IMG/VR virus record: IMGVR_UViG_3300025901_000002
Span: 1-62,529 of that record
Source of the DNA: a virus
Reading direction: 5' to 3' (one strand)
Length of the DNA stretch: 62,529 nt
Within the stretch, counting starts at the first letter, position 1; each line of letters begins with the position of its first letter. Positions 49,853-60,379 of this stretch are shown piece after piece. Position numbers and translations under genes: made by a program. Below the pieces are notes generated by a model. It saw nothing but the letters and a program-made list of their open reading frames with translations. It had not been told where the DNA came from and did not search any database.

Positions 49853-50281
49853 CTAGACGCGGGTCATGACACGGACGAGGAAGACGTGCCGGGCAGCGCC
49901 GTCTTCGTAAAACAATTCCCTGGGAATCACTCCCGCCACATACGGCGAGTCGAAGCCCAGCGAAAGGTTCGCTCTCAGAGTGGTTTCGACCGTCGCTAGC
50001 AGGGCTTTGACGGCATCGCGACCGGATTTGATAGTCTCGTCGTAGGGCGCCAGTGCGGCGCAGATGACGTCGAAGCGCTCATCTCGGCTTCTGTTGCCGA
50101 TGGCAGCCCAATCCTGGTCACCGTCAAGTGCCTTCCAGTCACCCTCGGGGTTTCCGTCGTAGCCGACGAAGACCATGGCCTGGTAGTCGCCGATCTCCGC
50201 TGGCCCATCGACGACGGTCAAACCAGCGGTTCTCAAGACGCTGATAATCGCGTCGATCGAGTCGAACGCGCGCGTGGGCAT
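49853..50281 (-). CDS. tail terminator-like protein
   Basis: 142 residues. AIISVLRTAGLTVVDGP..YQAMVFVGYDG, a helix then beta strands, resembles tail terminator/minor capsid proteins (gpU-like) usually found at this place between connectors and tube. Confidence 0.65.
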   Translation of the reverse strand: MPTRAFDSIDAIISVLRTAGLTVVDGPAEIGDYQAMVFVGYDGNPEGDWKALDGDQDWAAIGNRSRDERFDVICAALAPYDETIKSGRDAVKALLATVETTLRANLSLGFDSPYVAGVIPRELFYEDGAARHVFLVRVMTRV

Positions 50282-51117
50282 CAGGCGATCCCCGACAGGC
50301 TAGGTCCGAGCAGCTCCAGCGCGGCGTAGGGAATCGAGTAACCGAAGGAAGTGAATCCCGCTCCAGGAGTTTCCAGGCCAGCCCGCGCTGGCCCTTTCTG
50401 ACCTCGTTGAGTGTTCTGCCAGATGTGCTGCACGATTATCCCGGCGGCCTCGGAGTATTCGGCCGGCGTGATCAGCATTCCGGCTTCATAAGTGAAGGTC
50501 ACCGGTCCCCAGATAACCGATCCGGCCAGCACTCGAACCACGCCACCCTCGGTGACAGTCATATTACTTGGATTCCAGGTCAGTCCACCGTCAGCGGCTA
50601 CCACGCTGGTCAGCGAGATCACTGGCTTCGTTGTGAGGGTGAAGGACTGCAGGATGTCCGGAGATCGAGACGGGCTTGGATTACCCATGTCGCGCTTCTC
50701 GGTTACCGTCCGGCGCACTACGGCTTTGTCAAGGTGGCGCTCGACGGCGGCCGTTGCCGATTCGACTAGGCGACGCAACTCCTCATCGTCGATCGTCGCG
50801 ATCTTGTTCAGTTGCTCCTTGGCGTCCGCCAGTGACAGCAGATAGGGTGGCGCCGCCGGGTGGACGTTGAAGACATCCGAATGAGCGCCTGGATTAGCGC
50901 CCGTACCTTGCCAGTAGACGCGATGCGGACCGGCCTGGATCGTCTGGTAGTCGTACTGATAGATGCCCGTGGTGACCGGGGCGATCGGGCCGAACTGGCT
51001 CGGCGTGTTGTTCGGCAGCGTGACAGTGAGCGTGACGGAGCCCGCGTTCACCGGTGCCCCAGCGGGGGACGTGTTCGTCCATGCCAGACGAATCACATCG
51101 CCGATGTCGACGGTCAC
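50281..51117 (-). CDS. head-tail connector with N-terminal Ig-like domain
   Basis: 278 residues. Residues 1-85 form an Ig-like beta sandwich (VNAGSVTLTVTLPNN...VTTGIYQYDYQTIQAGPHRVYWQ). From 90 on, YLLSLADAKEQLNKIATIDDEELRRLVESATAAVERHLDKAVVRR is the gp6-like connector. The fusion may put an Ig decoration at the neck. Confidence 0.8.
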   Translation of the reverse strand: MTVDIGDVIRLAWTNTSPAGAPVNAGSVTLTVTLPNNTPSQFGPIAPVTTGIYQYDYQTIQAGPHRVYWQGTGANPGAHSDVFNVHPAAPPYLLSLADAKEQLNKIATIDDEELRRLVESATAAVERHLDKAVVRRTVTEKRDMGNPSPSRSPDILQSFTLTTKPVISLTSVVAADGGLTWNPSNMTVTEGGVVRVLAGSVIWGPVTFTYEAGMLITPAEYSEAAGIIVQHIWQNTQRGQKGPARAGLETPGAGFTSFGYSIPYAALELLGPSLSGIA

Positions 51118-51476: not shown

Positions 51477-52373
51477 CTATCGTCCGCAGATGGATGCTGT
51501 GCCGGCGTAGCCAGCCATGTTGGCCGCGCCTTCGTCCGTGACCAGTGACGTTGATCCGGCGTAGGCCACCACGACCGCGGCACCCGCGTGGGAGACGGCG
51601 ACGACGGCGCCAGCGAGGTCTTGGCAGATGAAACCCTCGGCACCCGGTGGTGTCGCCATGCCAGTGATGGTGGCCGACAGGGTGACGGTTCGGGTCAGCC
51701 CGCCGATTCCAGATACTTGGCCGGTGATACTGGCCGAGAGGGTGACCGAGCGGCTGACGGTTCCGGCATCGCTGCGGGCGCCGGTGACGCTCGCCGACAA
51801 GGTCAGCGTTCTGGATAGCGCCCCGCTGCCGGATACCGAACCGGTGATCGACGCCGACAGCGCCACGGCCCCGGAAACGGCCCCAGAATCAGAGCGAGCA
51901 CCCGCGACGCTTCCCGCGAGCGTCATCGCGCCGGTTGTAGACCCGGCGTCGGATCTCGCGCCGACGACCGTGCCGGACAGTGTCAGGATGCCCGCTACAT
52001 CGCCGGACGTCGGAGGAACTTCGATGGGCGCCCCGGCGATAACGATGCTGGTGTCGTAGCGCAACCGGGCCCGATAGGCAGAGTCCGTGTTGGACACGAT
52101 GATCGGCCGGACCTGGAGCACAGGATCGGATGATGATCCGGTTACTGCCGCAGCGAGGGTCACCGTGGCTGTTGCAGAGCCGGAGTCCAGCCTGGATCCC
52201 GTTACCGTCGCGGCCAGCGTGACGGCCTGGCTAAGCGCGCCAGAATCGGATCTGGCGCCGCTGATGGTGCCGGAAAGCGTCGCTACACCAGCGACTGCGC
52301 CCGTGGTGGCCGGCGACGGCGGCGTGCGTATGAAGATGACCGGCGCGGGCTGCATGCGGCCGAGGCGGGCCAT
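51477..52373 (-). CDS. virion protein with nine 20-residue beta repeats
   Basis: 298 residues. Nine repeats of exactly 20 residues with consensus G-x-h-S-x-x-V-T-L-S-A-S-h-T-G-x-x-S-D-S occupy residues 25-84 and 124-243 (DNA 51645-52301), split by a 39-residue insert. The last 55 residues are Ala/Gly-rich. The repeat is beta-solenoid or fibre-like. ATG at 52373 is chosen next to the upstream TAA. In a decoration block beside the capsid genes, a head fibre is the best guess. Confidence 0.7.
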   Translation of the reverse strand: MARLGRMQPAPVIFIRTPPSPATTGAVAGVATLSGTISGARSDSGALSQAVTLAATVTGSRLDSGSATATVTLAAAVTGSSSDPVLQVRPIIVSNTDSAYRARLRYDTSIVIAGAPIEVPPTSGDVAGILTLSGTVVGARSDAGSTTGAMTLAGSVAGARSDSGAVSGAVALSASITGSVSGSGALSRTLTLSASVTGARSDAGTVSRSVTLSASITGQVSGIGGLTRTVTLSATITGMATPPGAEGFICQDLAGAVVAVSHAGAAVVVAYAGSTSLVTDEGAANMAGYAGTASICGR

Positions 52374-52374
52374 C

Positions 52375-53109
52375 TTACCAAACCCCGGCTTGGATGGCCG
52401 CGAGCGATGGTGCGACGATCGGTTCGATCGCAGCCGGTGCCGCCCCGGCGCTCGCCGTGCGGATGACCACCGACACGGACACCCACAAGATGTTGTTTCC
52501 AGGCACACAGGTGAACGTCCGGGTTCCGGTAGCACCGGACGCACTCAGTTGCTCAGTGGCGCCGACACCGGACATTCCGCCGACGTGGATTTCGTACTGC
52601 TCCGTCATCGAACCGGGGGATCCGTAGGCGGTGTTGCTGCTGGGTCCGCTGTTGTTGAAACAGATGAGGTAGCCGTCGCTGACAGTCGCCGTGACACTGG
52701 GGCAGGTCTGGCTGTCGTTGCCTGGCGTGCCGTTGAAGCTCGCCGCTACGTCGACCGGAGTTGTGGTGTCCGCTCCGGTGAGGACGTAGACCACCATGGC
52801 CTTCTCTTCGTCGTGTGAGCCGGTTTCGGTGACGGTCACCGTGTTGGCTCCACCGGTATTCGCCACGGCGGTGTAGGTCTTGATGTGCCCCTCTCCGGTA
52901 CCTCCGTCGGCCGTGCCGTTGGTGATGGCGGTGAGAGTGGGGGCACCGGTACACGTTGGGGTGGGCATGGTGGTGAGGGTGTAGAAGTCGTTGGAGTGCG
53001 CGACCACCAACAGATCGCCGATCTGGGTGGTGGATGGCGTGGTCGCGGATACCGCAGCCGACGAGCCGTCATTTGTGCCCACCGTGACACTGCGCACCGC
53101 GATCGCCAT
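52375..53109 (-). CDS. beta-sandwich virion protein
   Basis: 244 residues. Thr/Ser/Val-rich beta strands (VGTNDGSSAAVSATTPSTTQIGDL; NTVTVTETGSHDEEKAMVVYVLTG) like capsid or fibre decorations; ends in an Ala/Ile-rich segment. Stop-start overlap with the beta-helix gene. Confidence 0.6.
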   Translation of the reverse strand: MAIAVRSVTVGTNDGSSAAVSATTPSTTQIGDLLVVAHSNDFYTLTTMPTPTCTGAPTLTAITNGTADGGTGEGHIKTYTAVANTGGANTVTVTETGSHDEEKAMVVYVLTGADTTTPVDVAASFNGTPGNDSQTCPSVTATVSDGYLICFNNSGPSSNTAYGSPGSMTEQYEIHVGGMSGVGATEQLSASGATGTRTFTCVPGNNILWVSVSVVIRTASAGAAPAAIEPIVAPSLAAIQAGVW

Positions 53110-53930
53110 TAGGGCACCGCCGCTCCCGTGGAGTCGTTGACGTTGCCGGACCACTCGGTGATGTGACTCGCGGGGGGCGTCGGGATCACGTATCCGAACA
53201 GTCCGGGCGCCATCCGATTGTTGCGAACCCGGATGTTGTTTCCGGTGGCGTCCGCATTCGGAAGCCGGACGCACGCGCCGCCCGTGTCGGGCTTCAGCAG
53301 CATCTTGTTGTTCTCGATCAGCCAGTTCACGTTGTCTGTGGAGGTGACGTTGAGCTGGATGCACGAGTTGTTCGGCCCGCTGTTCACTCCCGACAGGTCG
53401 AACGTATTGTGCACGATGGTGATGTTGGAAACTCCGGGACTGGTCTGCAGTCCATCAGTGTGCGGATCGCCACCGGCCGGGTTCAGGTCATAGATGTAGC
53501 AGTCCCGCATGTCGAAGTTGGACAGACATCCGACGCCGTTCTCAGTACGCCGGATCTGACACCGACGCAGGGTCACCGCCGGAGGTGTGGCGTTCGTGTC
53601 GTAGAAGACCCCGCTCGTCCCGGCACCGTTGCTGACGTCGAACTCGCAGTCATAGCAAGTGATCGTGCCGCCGGATGCCGTGTTGGCCACGAACAGTGCG
53701 CACAGCTCGGTCGATGGCGCGGTGATTCGGCAACTTTGTAGGACCAGATTCGTGTGGTTCGCGACGAACGCGCCCGTGATGTCCAGGGCTGTGATGGTCT
53801 GCCCGTTGCTGGTCGTGTCGAAGTTGCCCGGAGATGCAGTGAGTGATGTGCCAGACGGGACACCTGTGTTCGTGGGACCCGGCCACGATGACCCTGCCGC
53901 CTGGACCGACCTTGGCCGGACCAGTCTCAT
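53109..53930 (-). CDS. right-handed beta-helix protein
   Basis: 273 residues. Regular coils such as NLVLQSCRITAPS, TITCYDCEFDVSN, VTLRRCQIRR, NFDMRDCYIYDL, ITIVHNTFDL and WLIENNKMLL, with an N/C ladder, mark a pectate-lyase-type beta helix. Such proteins bind or cut polysaccharide in phage fibres. A capsule-degrading role is possible; catalytic residues are not identified. Confidence 0.8.
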   Translation of the reverse strand: MRLVRPRSVQAAGSSWPGPTNTGVPSGTSLTASPGNFDTTSNGQTITALDITGAFVANHTNLVLQSCRITAPSTELCALFVANTASGGTITCYDCEFDVSNGAGTSGVFYDTNATPPAVTLRRCQIRRTENGVGCLSNFDMRDCYIYDLNPAGGDPHTDGLQTSPGVSNITIVHNTFDLSGVNSGPNNSCIQLNVTSTDNVNWLIENNKMLLKPDTGGACVRLPNADATGNNIRVRNNRMAPGLFGYVIPTPPASHITEWSGNVNDSTGAAVP

Positions 53931-53931
53931 G

Positions 53932-54411
53932 TCAGATTCGCTCGAACCAGAAGCCAGCTCTGACGTTCACCGTGGCCGGCGCGGTCAAGCGCAGCACGAT
54001 TCCGGCCGACACATCGGCTTCGAGTGACGTGCCGAGTGCGCAGTCGTACACGAGCAGTCCACCCGTGGGCGTGAGGTAGTTGCTCTCCACCACCGTGAGC
54101 ACCGTAGGCTCCGAAGTGGACGCCGAGAACCCGGTGAACCCGGTGGTGATCGCACGGCCGTATACCTGCTGGATGTTCGACGTCTCGGACGTGTTGGCGG
54201 TTCCCGGCGTCGAGTTGGTGGCCAGCGTTGAGCGGCAGAGTTCCCAGAAGACCGGGACGGCGGACGCGGTGACGCCATCGAAGCCGATGCGGAACTTCAC
54301 CAGGTCGATGCCGAATTGAGCAGGGCTGATGACGCACAGCACCGACTTCGCGGTCGCCGCAGACAGTGCCACCGCCGATGTGGTGCGGATCGTGTATCCG
54401 GCCTTGGCCAT
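53932..54411 (-). CDS. jelly-roll-like virion protein
   Basis: 159 residues, almost entirely beta (VLCVISPAQFGIDLVKFRIGFDG; TEPTVLTVVESNYL; PATVNVRAGFWFERI). Looks like a head or fibre decoration. No name assigned. Confidence 0.6.
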   Translation of the reverse strand: MAKAGYTIRTTSAVALSAATAKSVLCVISPAQFGIDLVKFRIGFDGVTASAVPVFWELCRSTLATNSTPGTANTSETSNIQQVYGRAITTGFTGFSASTSEPTVLTVVESNYLTPTGGLLVYDCALGTSLEADVSAGIVLRLTAPATVNVRAGFWFERI

Positions 54412-54421
54412 GACTGTGCTC

Positions 54422-54802
54422 CTATGCCGCGATCGGCGAGACGGACAGGGTGTATGTGGAGATCGCGAACGTTGATCCGTTCACGACCGGGACAGTGGCC
54501 GTCAGTGCCCACGACTCGATGAAGTTCCCCGCCGTTGACGCATCCCATTCGGACACGTGCGACAGTGTCTCCGAGGTCGTCATGGACCACGTGCCCAGCG
54601 AGTTGAGTGTCATCGAACCCGCCGACGGGGCGTTCCAGGTGATGGCGTTCCTCGTGGTGACGGCGGAAGCGTTCGCGGTGCCGGCCGAACCGGGGTCGCC
54701 GATGTGGAGCTTGATGAACGGCGTAGCGATCGCCGAATAGGCGGTGTTGCGATGAACATTGAGGATCGAGTTCGCTCGAGACGCGCTGACTCCGGCGGTC
54801 AT
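54422..54802 (-). CDS. beta-rich virion protein
   Basis: 126 residues. IKLHIGDPGSAGTAN followed by TWSMTTSETLSHVSEWDAS resembles the small putative structural proteins that many actinophages carry near minor tail genes (HxGDPGxAGTxN). ATG at 54802 set by overlap. Confidence 0.65.
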   Translation of the reverse strand: MTAGVSASRANSILNVHRNTAYSAIATPFIKLHIGDPGSAGTANASAVTTRNAITWNAPSAGSMTLNSLGTWSMTTSETLSHVSEWDASTAGNFIESWALTATVPVVNGSTFAISTYTLSVSPIAA

Positions 54803-55122
54803 GCCTGAACCTCCTGCTTGTCCGGAAGGGCCGTGGGATGCACGGCATGACCGGTGACGACGGCGGTGACACCCACGGCGAAGTTCGTCGGCGCGTTCAC
54901 CCGCTCGTAGATGTGGACCACGTCGCTCTCCGCGCACAGGAATCGGTAGCTGTATTCGCCGGCAGAGTCGAGAACGATGGTGCCGTCAGACTGAAGGGAT
55001 CCGTTGTCCCGCAGCGTGTCCAAGAGGGCAACCGACACGCGGATCAGCGGATCCGCCCTCAGTACCTGCCGGACGCCGTTCACCAACTGAACGGTGGCTT
55101 CGCCGGGAACGAGGGTGCTCAC
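54799..55122 (-). CDS. beta-rich structural-region protein
   Basis: 107 residues. Central beta pattern (GTIVLDSAGEYSYRFLCAESDVVHIYER) typical of small structural proteins. Coupled to the methyltransferase gene (ATGA). Confidence 0.55.
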   Translation of the reverse strand: MSTLVPGEATVQLVNGVRQVLRADPLIRVSVALLDTLRDNGSLQSDGTIVLDSAGEYSYRFLCAESDVVHIYERVNAPTNFAVGVTAVVTGHAVHPTALPDKQEVQA

Positions 55123-55904
55123 TCGCTAGCCTGAGGAGGCTTCGAGGAACGGCCCTGGGGTGGCTGCTTGCGCGCCTCGCGCTTCGGCTCCTCGTCGGTG
55201 ACGTAGCCGCGCAGTTTCAGCTGCTCGTCCACGAGTGCCACCCGGTCGGTCTTGCCGGCAGCCACCAACCCTGCACGTTCGCGCAGTAGGGCGGCGATGG
55301 CCTTGTTCTCAACCGGCTCCGACATCACTTTCTCCTTCAATTGCGGTTGAGGGCCGACCGGAAGCACGTCCACACCGACCCACGGATTCCCTCGCTGTGG
55401 CTGCCAGTCGTCAGGCTTCCTCACCTTGACGAAAACTCCTGGATCTTGCGGGTCCTCGATAATCTCCAGAATCTCCAGGCGAGCATTGGAGAAAACGCGC
55501 CGTAGCGACTCCGCCGTGTATCTCCAGTAGTCACCCGGGAACGGGTGGTAGGGAAACCCCGGAGAGCGGGTGGTGACCATCATGAGCCCACCGGGGGCAA
55601 CGACGGCGATGAGATTGCGAATACTGGAGCGCCAGTCTTCAACGTGCTCGAGCATCTCCGTGGAGATCACTACGTCCCAACTGCTGGCGCCAAACGTCTC
55701 GATGAGTGCCGTGCAGTCGATAACTTGGTCAACGTCTGGTCCAGCGGAAGCATCGACACCGATGTAGTCCTCGGGCCCTAATGCGGTGACGAGTGGTCGC
55801 ACCGAGCCGTTGACGTTGTAACTTCCGGCTTCGAGGACCCGCTTTCCCCGTACCTCGTCGGCGCTCAGCGCGGTGCGGAACCAGGCTAGGACTGAGGCGT
55901 GCAT
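55119..55904 (-). CDS. class I SAM methyltransferase with C-terminal tag
   Basis: 261 residues. RVLEAGSYNVNGS (23-34) is motif I, IGVDASAG (48-55) motif II, and STEMLEHVEDW (81-91) motif IV of Methyltransf_11 enzymes. Residues 203-235 (ALLRERAGLVAAGKTDRVAL..EQLKLRGY) match the C terminus of the neighbouring glycosyltransferase-like protein. An internal ATG at 55325, with AAGGAG upstream, would make a free 68-residue tag protein. Likely modifies a virion protein or its glycan; the target is unknown. Confidence 0.8.
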   Translation of the reverse strand: MHASVLAWFRTALSADEVRGKRVLEAGSYNVNGSVRPLVTALGPEDYIGVDASAGPDVDQVIDCTALIETFGASSWDVVISTEMLEHVEDWRSSIRNLIAVVAPGGLMMVTTRSPGFPYHPFPGDYWRYTAESLRRVFSNARLEILEIIEDPQDPGVFVKVRKPDDWQPQRGNPWVGVDVLPVGPQPQLKEKVMSEPVENKAIAALLRERAGLVAAGKTDRVALVDEQLKLRGYVTDEEPKREARKQPPQGRSSKPPQASE

Positions 55905-56621
55905 CTACTGATACCCCCTCAGTGCCAGTTGCTCGTCCACGGCGGCCGCGCGGTCGAACCTGCCGGCCCGCTTGTACCCGGCCCGCTCCCGCAGCAGTGC
56001 GGAGATGTCCGAGGTCGATCTTTTAGCCGCGGATTCGTCCTCGTCGGCGGTGCTGCTGCTGACGGGGATCCGCTTCGGCGGCTCCCGCTCCTCGAGTTCG
56101 AAACCCAGGTCGGACACCGTGTAGTGCAGATGTGTCGCCGGGGCGTCCCAGATGATCTCCACCCGGTCGGACACCTTGTTCTTGTGCCATCCGGAGAAGC
56201 TGCCGTCGGAGAAATGTCCCTGCCAGTCCGCCCTGAACGCCTCCACCACGGACCGGGGGAAGTAGATGAGGCCGAACCCGAAGGCGCTGCACCACCGTTC
56301 GCCGGTCGCGACGTGCGATCCGTCGGAACGGCGGTGGCACCACACTGGCTGCTTGAGTCGATGGCTTCTCACGGTGGTCTCATACAGCCGATACGGCGCC
56401 ACGATGACCGTGTCCGGCTTGGCCTTGGCTCTCTCGACGAAAACCTCGAGAGAGGTCCGGTCGACTGCGATATCCCACTCGAGTAGGACGATGTCGTCGT
56501 CTATCTCTGCCATGGGAGAGAGGTCGTAGTCGTCGAGATAGATCCTGGGGATCGGGTCGATCACGTGCGCCCGAGCGGTATTCGCCGGGACCACGGCCGG
56601 CCACGAGCGAAGGAGCTTCAC
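55905..56621 (-). CDS. GT-A-like glycosyltransferase with C-terminal tag
   Basis: 238 residues. DDDIVLLEWDIAVDR (41-55) has the D-x-D-like acidic patch of GT-A glycosyltransferases; WCSAFGFGLIYFPRSVVEAF and HLHYTVSDLGF continue that fold. Residues 206-238 (ALLRERAGYKRAGRFDRAA..DEQLALRGY) repeat the methyltransferase tag. GTG at 56621 is preceded by AAGGAG at ideal spacing. It directly follows the capsid gene, so capsid glycosylation is the leading idea. Confidence 0.7.
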   Translation of the reverse strand: MKLLRSWPAVVPANTARAHVIDPIPRIYLDDYDLSPMAEIDDDIVLLEWDIAVDRTSLEVFVERAKAKPDTVIVAPYRLYETTVRSHRLKQPVWCHRRSDGSHVATGERWCSAFGFGLIYFPRSVVEAFRADWQGHFSDGSFSGWHKNKVSDRVEIIWDAPATHLHYTVSDLGFELEEREPPKRIPVSSSTADEDESAAKRSTSDISALLRERAGYKRAGRFDRAAAVDEQLALRGYQ

Positions 56622-56653: not shown

Positions 56654-58072
56654 TTAGAAGACTGGCGTGACCAATCCGGTACCGGAGACCGACTGCACCG
56701 AGTTCGCGTAGCGCCGGAAGGAGAACGCGAAGTACCCGTACACCACGAGCAGGACGCCGAGGTTTGCCGCCTTGGGCTGCTCGGCGCGGATGAACACCGG
56801 GGCGTTCGGGTCCTCCCACAGGTGGCACTCGTCAGAGCAGATGACGTAGATGACGTCCTCGTTGGTGCCGGTGCCACCGTTGATGGCGATGTTGTTGTCC
56901 ACCACGACCGGCATCCCGTTGGGCAGCATGCCGCGGAATCCGGCGCCGTAGGCCACGGCGTTGTTGGTGCCGATGGCCCTCGGGTCCATGCCGGGCTGCG
57001 AGATCAGCGGCCAGGTGCTGGTGAGCTGACTGTTCAGCCAGTGCCACCGACGCGAGTGCATAACCGCGTGGGTGGGCATGCCGTATGTCAGCAGCGCCGC
57101 CTCGACGCCGGCCGCAGCGGAGAGGATCTTCGGATACAGCTCGGCGCCGGTCGGGGTGGTGTCCGTGTAGCTGGTGGTGGTGGCGAGCGCCGCCAGGCCC
57201 ACGGTCGCCTTGTTGATGAGCATCGAGTCCTTGTTCGTGGCGTAGCGCCGGAACAGGTCGCCCATCGTGACGTCTTCGATGCCGGTGCCGCGCTCGATGG
57301 CCTGCCGAGACAGCGTCTGCTGTCCGGCGGCGGTCAACACGTTCTCCGTGAGGAGCGTGTCGTCCATGTCGGTCTCGGACACCGCCGAGTTTTCCGTGGT
57401 CTGCTCGGCCACCGAGGCAGAGGTGGTGATGCGAGAGATGTTGACGGTCATGCCGTCGGCCGGCAGCGGGTGCTTGTTGCAGATGTCGGCGAACGGCGAC
57501 ATGTTCGCCACAGCCGGCGCGTACATCTCGGTCAGGTACTGCGGCACCACGAGCCCCGTGAAAGCGCCGGTGCCGACCGCGCGGGTCAGGTACTGCGGTC
57601 GCTCGACGCGCTCTTCCTGCATGTGGCGGTTGAGCCGCATGTTCGACTCGGGGTTTCCCATGAGCCACGACGCCGCGACGTCGCGCAGGAACAGCGCGCC
57701 GCCGGGGTCGCCCTCACGCGAATATGTCCGCTCCTCGCGACCCACTCGCGCGACCCGGTCGTAGGCCGGCTTGGTGTTGCCGGCGTTGGTCGGCTCGGAC
57801 CGCTTCGCGTCCTCGGCGATCTCCAGTTCCTCGATCTTCGCCTCGCGGGCCCGCTCCAGCTTCGAACGGATGCCGATGAGATCCTGCTTGCAGCGCTTGG
57901 CCGTCGCGTCGAGGTCGTCGCAACGAGTCTGCTCGTCGGCGGTGAGGGTGGATCGGCCCTCCTGGTCGGCCAGGGAGAGGATCGCGGCGACTTCGGCCTT
58001 GCACTTGTCGCGATGCCGAACAGTCGTCTCCTCCTCAACCTCAATCTTGGTGATCAGCTCGTCGAGATTCAC
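56654..58072 (-). CDS. HK97-fold major capsid protein
   Basis: 472 residues. Residues 1-110 are a charged helical delta domain (LITKIEVEEETTVRHRDKC...LERAREAKIEELEI) removed by the protease. The rest has LVVPQYLTEMYAPAVANMSPFAD, PLPADGMTVNISRITTS and the P-loop/A-domain pattern of HK97 capsids. GTG at 58072 has GGAGG upstream. Confidence 0.95.
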   Translation of the reverse strand: MNLDELITKIEVEEETTVRHRDKCKAEVAAILSLADQEGRSTLTADEQTRCDDLDATAKRCKQDLIGIRSKLERAREAKIEELEIAEDAKRSEPTNAGNTKPAYDRVARVGREERTYSREGDPGGALFLRDVAASWLMGNPESNMRLNRHMQEERVERPQYLTRAVGTGAFTGLVVPQYLTEMYAPAVANMSPFADICNKHPLPADGMTVNISRITTSASVAEQTTENSAVSETDMDDTLLTENVLTAAGQQTLSRQAIERGTGIEDVTMGDLFRRYATNKDSMLINKATVGLAALATTTSYTDTTPTGAELYPKILSAAAGVEAALLTYGMPTHAVMHSRRWHWLNSQLTSTWPLISQPGMDPRAIGTNNAVAYGAGFRGMLPNGMPVVVDNNIAINGGTGTNEDVIYVICSDECHLWEDPNAPVFIRAEQPKAANLGVLLVVYGYFAFSFRRYANSVQSVSGTGLVTPVF

Positions 58073-58143
58073 GACGGCCTCCACTTCCGGTAGTCATGGT
58101 TGGGGTTTCTCGCGATCCCGGTCTGACTGCCGTCCATGCGAGG

Positions 58144-58212: not shown

Positions 58213-58995
58213 CTAGTCGTCCAGCATGGACAGCCGGACTTTCATCAGCGCGACACTGCCGCCGCCCAGTTCGGGGGTGCGCTCGACCGAAGGTTCTTGG
58301 TCGCGCTCGATGACCGACTCGTCCGTTGCGGCCGGCGCGAGCCGGACCTGCAGATCCTCAACGACCGCTCGCTGGGCGCCCTCGGGAAGCAGTCGGAGGT
58401 CTTGCATGATCTCCGACTGCCGTGCCGCAACAGAGGTGTGCGGCGAGGCTCCGTAGTTCACCGCCGATACGTCCCCCCGGTCCAAGTCGACCTTGGCGAT
58501 GCGGAACTCGGTGAAGTCGTCGTTCCACTCGCCCTCGTCGATGCGGAACGCGAAACTCATCTCCGTGACGTCGCGGTCCTCGATCGCCGTGACGAGGTCG
58601 CGAACATCGGTGCGCTTGGGGTTGACGTAGGCCGAGGTGGCCAGGCCTTTGCCGTCGGCGAGAAGCTCCAGACTGCCGTTCGTAGTGCGCGCCATAGTGA
58701 CGCCCCGGTGGTTCACCAGGTAGGCGACATCCGGGTTCTTCGACAGGGTCTCGTCGAAGGCGCCCTGGGAAACCACCTCGTCGTACTCGCCGAAGATGTC
58801 CCACATTCGGTACTTCTTCTCGACAACGGAGGCGTAGCCCTCCAGCAGGATTCGCTCCTGCTTGTTCCAGATCACCGTGGAGGCGCGCATCTTCACCCCG
58901 AACGCGTGGGATCTCGCCACGCCGTTCGGGACGTCGCCCGGGTTCGCCTGTACCGCTGCGGCGCGGCGCTGCAGCATGCGAGCACGGTCGGTCAT
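58213..58995 (-). CDS. HK97-type prohead protease
   Basis: 260 residues. YLVNHRG (H96) and MSFAF (S147) are the catalytic His and Ser of the U35 family. LEGYASVVEKKYRMWDIFGEYDEVV is the usual start. ATG at 58995 has CGGAGGAACC; a 59010 start overlaps the portal stop. It cleaves the capsid delta domain. Confidence 0.95.
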   Translation of the reverse strand: MTDRARMLQRRAAAVQANPGDVPNGVARSHAFGVKMRASTVIWNKQERILLEGYASVVEKKYRMWDIFGEYDEVVSQGAFDETLSKNPDVAYLVNHRGVTMARTTNGSLELLADGKGLATSAYVNPKRTDVRDLVTAIEDRDVTEMSFAFRIDEGEWNDDFTEFRIAKVDLDRGDVSAVNYGASPHTSVAARQSEIMQDLRLLPEGAQRAVVEDLQVRLAPAATDESVIERDQEPSVERTPELGGGSVALMKVRLSMLDD

Positions 58996-59006
58996 GGTTC
59001 CTCCGG

Positions 59007-60182
59007 TCATTGCGGATTCGGGCTGGAGGTCGCGGGGGTCGCCCTCGGCGGAAAGAAGTGGTCGAACTCGGCGATCTGCTCTGGTGTCAGCGGTTCCAAG
59101 TCATCGAGCATGCGTGCCTCGGACGGGGTGAGCGTGCGGGAATCGATCCGCAGCTTCAAGGTCTCCGCGCGCGCCTTGGGGTCCATCCGCAGCAGAGCGT
59201 CGGTGTTCAGCTTCACGTACCGCGGCTTGGCCGTCAGTCGTCCGAGTGCCTTCTCTCGGCGGATCACCGCAGGGCCGATATGCATGATCAGCAACTGCAG
59301 GTTCCGCTCGGTGATCGACGCGTACGTGATATGTCCAGAGCGGACCACCGCATCGATCAGGTCCCCAGGGCAGTCGAAGAACCTGGCCACGTCACCGACG
59401 CTGTACTGCTTGGCTTCGAGCCACGAGTTCCCCGCTGCTTCCGACTGCAGGAGGTTCAATTCCCAGTCCTGGCCGGAAACGAACAACCCGCCCTGCTGGA
59501 CGCTCGCGGAGAAGCGGTCTTTGACCTCTTGCGCCTGCGGACTGGTGATCGTCTTGCCGGTGTTCTTCAGGTGCATCGCCGGGACGCCGCCGTTGCCGAA
59601 CCAGTCCAGCGCGAAGTCCTGGATCGATAGATACTCGCCGATCGTCCACGCCGCATACGCGACCGGCGACAAACCCACCGGCAGTCCGGCGACCGTGTAT
59701 TGCTTCTCGTGCCACACTTCGTGCGGGTCGTAGAGCTTCCCGCAGATCCTCCACCGCCACCCATCGGGCGTGGCTTTCGTGACCTCCGCTGGCACTACCG
59801 CGCACTCGCCGATCGGCTGCAGGTCAATGCGGTTCGGCAAGCCCGAACCGGTGACCTCGGTGACCAAGCCGACGCCGTTGCCGGCCCTGTCCAGATCGAC
59901 CTGGCTCGAATACAGCCACTCCTCGATCTCAACCCGCTCCCCGCCCGGCTTCACCAGTACCGGCGGCTTAGGAACCTCGACCTGATGCCCCAAGACCTTG
60001 CGATACAGATCCACGGGCATGGTGGAGATCAAGTTCGCCCGCAGGCGCAGGCACGCCCACACCGCCGAGTGTCGCAGCGCGGTGTCGCTCGTGACCGCCG
60101 CCCGGCCTCCCGAGGTCACGCCGACGCGCCGGATGTAGTCCTCGGCGGTCATGCCTTGGAATGAGCGGCGAAACAGGCTCAC
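59007..60182 (-). CDS. HK97-family portal protein
   Basis: 391 residues. TALRHSAVWACLRLRANLISTMPVDLYRK, GNGVGLVTEVT, VAYAAWTIGEYLSIQDFALDWFGNGG, and LMIHIGPAVIRREKAL-like segments are the HK97 portal pattern. GTG at 60182 overlaps the upstream stop. Forms the 12-mer packaging ring. Confidence 0.95.
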   Translation of the reverse strand: MSLFRRSFQGMTAEDYIRRVGVTSGGRAAVTSDTALRHSAVWACLRLRANLISTMPVDLYRKVLGHQVEVPKPPVLVKPGGERVEIEEWLYSSQVDLDRAGNGVGLVTEVTGSGLPNRIDLQPIGECAVVPAEVTKATPDGWRWRICGKLYDPHEVWHEKQYTVAGLPVGLSPVAYAAWTIGEYLSIQDFALDWFGNGGVPAMHLKNTGKTITSPQAQEVKDRFSASVQQGGLFVSGQDWELNLLQSEAAGNSWLEAKQYSVGDVARFFDCPGDLIDAVVRSGHITYASITERNLQLLIMHIGPAVIRREKALGRLTAKPRYVKLNTDALLRMDPKARAETLKLRIDSRTLTPSEARMLDDLEPLTPEQIAEFDHFFPPRATPATSSPNPQ

Positions 60183-60379
60183 GTCTGACCGCCGCGGAAC
60201 TTGGCCTTCAATTTGGCAAGTCCGCCGTCCGCCCACCAGCTCCCCGCGAGCACAGCAGCTCCCGCCGGGCCCGTTGCCCAGCCACCCATCACGGGCCACA
60301 AGGCCAGCAGTGGGGCTGCGGCAATCAGCAGGATTCCCAGCGTGTCCAGTGCCGTCGTCACGTGCTCCTGAACCTTCAC
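60179..60379 (-). CDS. small membrane protein between terminase and portal
   Basis: 66 residues from GTG at 60379 (AGGGGTG upstream); an ATG at 60427 would overlap the terminase end by 32 bases. Hydrophobic segment LDTLGILLIAAAPLLALWPVMGG. A short membrane protein at this place is seen in many actinophages; role unknown. Confidence 0.6.
   Translation of the reverse strand: MKVQEHVTTALDTLGILLIAAAPLLALWPVMGGWATGPAGAAVLAGSWWADGGLAKLKAKFRGGQT

Follow-up and report, generated by a model that had tools for sequence, protein, structure and literature searches.

Two neighbouring reading frames of unrelated fold, encoded next to the major capsid gene of a virus, contain similar C-terminal elements, and this raises the question of what the element is and why two enzymes should carry it. 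We analysed the whole viral record (IMGVR_UViG_3300025901_000002; 62,529 bases, hereafter referred to as the window). Its minus strand reads terminase, portal, S78 protease, major capsid protein (MCP), a glycosyltransferase-like (GT-like) ORF and a methyltransferase (MT) ORF, in this order. The portal protein (59007..60299; phrog_12, E 2e-44), the S78 prohead protease (58213..59010; Pfam, E 4.7e-27) and the HK97-type MCP (56654..58084; phrog_2263, PHROGs E 6.7e-50) are followed by the GT-like ORF (55905-56621; 238 aa, GTG start), the MT ORF (55119-55904; 261 aa) and, further downstream, a head-tail adaptor (50281..51117; phrog_442, E 5e-22), all on the minus strand.

The shared element corresponds to residues 204–237 of the GT-like ORF and to about residues 201–235 of the MT ORF, with 68% identity over 34 columns. 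The ungapped BLOSUM62 score of the pair is 103, against a mean of −24 (sd 13) and a maximum of 42 in 100,000 shuffles. The element that an earlier note on this DNA had described at the end of both enzymes is therefore real, but the MT copy is not terminal: it is followed by 26 residues, including a PPQGR motif common to the X proteins described below. A profile search of all the frames of the window revealed no third copy.

The element is the core of a small head-region protein

What the two ORFs share is the helical-hairpin core of a small head-region protein, here called X, which is ordinarily encoded by a gene of its own. In X proteins (52–99 aa in our examples; PHROG phrog_6852), a two-helix hairpin is joined through a variable linker to a short, conserved, PPKGR-like end motif. 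AlphaFold models of X have a confident hairpin and a low-confidence tail, and the hairpin is predicted in both contexts, GT and X. The hairpin core, LLxERxxxxxxGxxxRVxxVDxxLxxxG, is kept almost entirely in both window copies, which score 61–65 bits with the X profile built in this analysis and match phrog_6852 with E values of 0.0024 (GT ORF) and 0.093 (MT ORF). The copy in the GT ORF is a hairpin without the X tail and without a start of its own, whereas that in the MT ORF is a complete X.

In actinobacterial phages and prophages, X normally has a gene to itself, located after the MCP and before the head-tail adaptor. Its best annotated relative, gp22 of the cluster J mycobacteriophages (phrog_6852), is a stand-alone protein encoded directly 3' of a glycosyltransferase and just 5' of the head-tail adaptor; within cluster J, X is found as gp22 of Courthouse and gp20 of Thibault. 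In nearly all the loci recovered by the X scan of viral contigs, X is stand-alone with a recognisable ribosome site of its own, often with the adaptor immediately downstream. The MCP lies upstream in 72 of 78 X loci, most of the remainder being short contigs, and a GT precedes X in 24. In Actinobacteria genomes, the X matches adjoin an MCP gene, except for one weak, chance-like match without a capsid gene. The proposed tie between the element and the capsid region is therefore borne out, with no wide occurrence in non-capsid contexts, and a domain scattered over unrelated proteins can be ruled out, since the matches are X genes adjoining the MCP.

The position of X in the window, between the MCP and the adaptor, matches the placement of the family, with other ORFs intervening, so that X and the adaptor are set apart by several head genes. 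These extra ORFs (51477-54937, minus strand) include one (54422-54937) that matches phrog_240 'head protein' and another (51477-52544) in which 'VTLSATITG'-like segments recur; they are possible capsid decoration or display proteins.

Sequence searches with X against solved structures gave nothing credible and fold searches returned generic hairpins only. A tblastn search for the element in named phages with other X queries yielded weak or no matches, because the motif is short. The X of L021/L022 (4007-4207) has a weak match, below the cut-off, to the Pfam family DUF7302 (PF23976). In a set of contigs with the order MCP-MT-GT (L006–L012 and L014), the place of X is taken by a small protein with a similar hairpin-plus-charged-tail layout and little sequence similarity, which is possibly a very diverged X.

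The two enzymes and their capsid-side setting

The GT domain (residues 1–178 of the GT-like ORF; 56088..56621, minus strand) was modelled by AlphaFold with a pLDDT of about 97 over most blocks (mean for the GT model, 90.7). The top PDB match with Foldseek was STIV A197 (E 2.6e-6), followed by EXTL2, and phage GT-A proteins were also matched, with modest TM scores of about 0.4–0.5 at best. No Pfam glycosyltransferase match was obtained for this ORF; possible catalytic or metal-binding positions are an EWD motif and, towards the C terminus, HLH(Y), both conserved. The GT-like ORF is thus predicted, from its model, to have a GT-A fold. The adjacent ORF contains a class I SAM-dependent methyltransferase domain (Methyltransf_23, PF13489; residues 1–190; 55335..55904, minus strand), detected with an E value of 2.5e-12 and a score of 47.3 bits, against a gathering cut-off of 27. 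The description of the pair as enzymes of unrelated fold was therefore correct.

Many phages of Actinobacteria have capsid-side GTs, and in some of these phages virion glycosylation has been linked to immune recognition. We know of no account of how capsid-side enzymes find virion proteins. In our dataset (77 GT loci, 64 of them distinct), the MCP was found upstream in 54 of the distinct GT-family loci, and the gene order of the cassettes was variable; one contig (L093, 4001-8508) has three copies of the capsid-side GT family. No GT of this family was found by tblastn in named phage records. Virion glycosylation has been reported for some actinobacteriophages (Freeman et al. 2023, as cited in PMC13313380).

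The methyltransferase ORF runs into a complete X gene

The second copy of the element (hairpin core, 55200..55301, minus strand) is part of a complete X gene of 68 aa (55119..55325, minus strand), with hairpin core, linker and PPQGR motif, in frame with the MT ORF. This gene has its own ATG at 55325, with a Shine-Dalgarno (SD) sequence, AAGGAG (55332..55337, minus strand), 6 nt upstream, and no in-frame start of the MT ORF other than codons 193/194 is preceded by an SD. The nested X, the only complete copy in the window, has a tail reading PPQGRSSKP and is 51% identical over residues 1–67 to the stand-alone protein of L025, with which it shares the tail PQGRSSKP. MT homology can be followed in frame until approximately 'NPWVGVDVL', about 15 codons short of X, and the MT ORF is therefore an in-frame run-on of two genes. 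The earlier idea of a modular tag on the MT is not supported: a whole downstream X gene, with its own start, is read in frame. Given this separate ATG and ribosome site, the phage probably makes free X in addition to MT-X.

Among the 82 MT loci examined, the MT-X arrangement was found only in the contig of the window and in L110. The window MT is 54% identical to that of L110 and 49% identical to that of L014. In L110, too, the MT reads in frame into X, which belongs to a different subtype and could plausibly start at a GTG. Other relatives of the window MT (L193, L195, L208, L209, L235, L237 and L251) form in-frame fusions with further large domains, and as some of these resemble glycosyltransferases, fusions of an MT to another enzyme exist elsewhere in phages. 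In L021/L022, the MCP and the MT are separated by a reading frame (2263-2928) of zinc-finger and HNH-like character.

Hairpin-bearing glycosyltransferases form a clade

The hairpin of the window GT (residues 197–237; 55911..56033, minus strand), a duplicate of the X core, is predicted by AlphaFold to consist of two helices (197–218 and 222–234), and no SD-preceded start was found in the GT ORF. Most of the capsid-side GTs in the loci examined lack this hairpin, and among the 51 GTs placed on a tree it is present in four: the window and its three nearest GTs, L084, L085 and L086. These are the GT loci closest to the window among the 77, besides its identical contig, and the four tagged GTs are each other's closest relatives, forming an exclusive clade (support 100/96). 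The second contig with the fusion of the window is identical over 12,784 bases and therefore provides no independent support. In L084, the GT is fused to a full X with an internal start (GGAGGA-5nt-ATG), whereas in L085 and L086 a separate X comes after the tagged GT. L085 and a prophage of Amycolatopsis palatopharyngis DSM 44832 are identical, and this prophage holds the one tagged GT in our host-genome sampling; no further tagged GT was found among 392 genomes of the Amycolatopsis family.

The paths from the window GT to the other tagged GTs correspond to 0.93–1.42 changes per site, and the hairpin is still recognisable, and free of stops or frameshifts, in every sampled member of the clade. 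The hairpin of the L086 GT is 62–65% identical to those of the window and L084 and 44% identical to its own adjacent X, and is therefore not a fresh duplicate. That of L085 has drifted (28 bits), with changes to the conserved G24 and R28 residues. The simplest reading of these comparisons is a single old GT-hairpin fusion, retained while the proteins diverged to roughly 50–60% identity; such retention, seen over 34 residues and four lineages, suggests a function.

The expectation that the element would be fused to enzymes near capsid genes in other phages was thus confirmed for the GT, in a clade-wide manner, and GT/MT cassettes beside the MCP proved common, in cluster J as well as in our GT loci. 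However, the element cannot be regarded as a tag made for enzymes, being ordinarily a stand-alone head-region gene and absent from most capsid-side GTs. We conclude that it represents a head-region gene of fixed position, and that the targeting idea is partly supported, being kept alive by the fixed fusion to one GT clade.

A possible role in virion modification

In its position and conservation X resembles a head-assembly factor, and we infer that it may bind the assembling head, with the hairpin itself as the putative binding part. The hairpin on the GT and the X on the MT would then deliver both enzymes to the working place of X on the head, increasing their local concentration there, which might allow glycosylation of the capsid or of an adjacent head protein and perhaps methylation of the sugar. 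We lean, somewhat better than evenly, towards this reading as a whole, with the hairpin as the core of X, a nested X, an old GT fusion and enzymes brought to the assembling head for modification. One published observation counts against the presence of X on the head. Mass spectrometry of Omega virions detected the head-tail proteins gp25–gp28 and gp30, gp25 being a 189-aa protein of the adaptor's size, and nothing from the position just before gp25 (PMC3706429), which is where X is expected by synteny. The absence of the hairpin from most capsid-side GTs, its drift in L085, the generic outcome of the X fold search and the identity of the second contig also weigh against the reading as a whole.

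It is also conceivable, albeit unlikely, that the fusions are by-products of cassette insertion. GT and MT genes inserted upstream of X would have lost a stop, so that the enzyme reads into X, and the GT hairpin would be a recombination scar; X would matter for head assembly and the fusions would do nothing special. In many loci X does directly follow a GT, in most cases as an ORF of its own that lies close to the GT or overlaps it, and the differences in cassette gene order between loci are consistent with such insertions. Furthermore, free X could still be initiated from the SD and start codon retained in the window MT-X and the L084 GT-X, and reading on from the enzyme may then be incidental. 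However, a neutral scar should have decayed, and the GT hairpin is present, with no stop or frameshift, in every sampled member of its clade. Moreover, L085, L086 and the window have a separate complete X besides the GT copy, which is not, therefore, required to encode X.

An improbable alternative is that the GT pairs with X through hairpin-hairpin contact, X being an acceptor or regulatory subunit that does not link the enzyme to the capsid. Self-association is frequent among helical hairpins of this size, an interaction can often be expected between fused partners (Rosetta-stone reasoning), and many genomes have the GT and X genes side by side. Against this, no acceptor site is evident, and in many phages X occurs with no such GT found nearby, so X must have another main role. 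It is more doubtful still that the MT 'tag' is a matter of annotation, with X translated from its own ATG only and a real stop or small indel, of assembly or biological origin, dividing it from the MT: the internal SD is strong, out-of-frame TGA triplets (TTGA, GTGATG) lie right at the junction and the second contig is not independent, but the MT homology extends in frame almost to X and L110 has the same arrangement with a different X subtype.

Returning to the recruitment of enzymes to the assembling head, we suggest, tentatively and with less than even confidence, a more general form of it: phages of Actinobacteria may recruit virion-modifying enzymes through a borrowed X hairpin, either by nesting or as a fixed duplicate, and X may be a general assembly factor that binds the capsid in many of them. 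The fixed head-region hairpin of one GT clade and the enzyme-X nestings together provide a targeting hypothesis that can be tested, and they make X, whose small head gene is widespread, a candidate capsid-binding protein.

Comparison with known systems

The hairpins of CysS_C (PF23493) and McsA have the same size and two-helix shape as X. Kinship with CysS_C was rejected, as every score was below the Pfam cut-off, and the fold matches were weak; the likeness most likely reflects the same simple shape.

In phage lambda, the C-terminal part of an enzyme, the gpC protease, is the head-assembly protein Nu3, and initiation at an internal in-frame codon yields Nu3 on its own as well. C, Nu3 and the portal form a complex (PMC3224144). 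The parallel with MT-X would be one of nesting logic only: the enzymes differ, and the window displays just the nested in-frame start. The gene for lambda gpFI is likewise small and lies after the MCP gene and before the first of the head-tail joining genes. An interaction between FI and the MCP (E) has been reported (PMC3224144), and X would resemble gpFI in position only.

The closest known counterpart of X is the phrog_6852 protein gp22 of Courthouse, a cluster J omegavirus, named 'head-tail connector protein' in RefSeq, a putative function given by annotation only. It resembles the window X in its hairpin core, its charged, proline-rich tail and its place after capsid-side GTs and before the adaptor, but is stand-alone, with no enzyme fusion in the records seen. 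Capsid-side GT/MT cassettes, with a GT and an MT between the MCP and the head-tail genes as in the window, are known from cluster J actinobacteriophages (PMC3706429). The putative glycosylation cassette of the window is of a known kind; it differs in that its GT bears the hairpin of a head protein and its MT runs into a head gene, and these are the new features described here.
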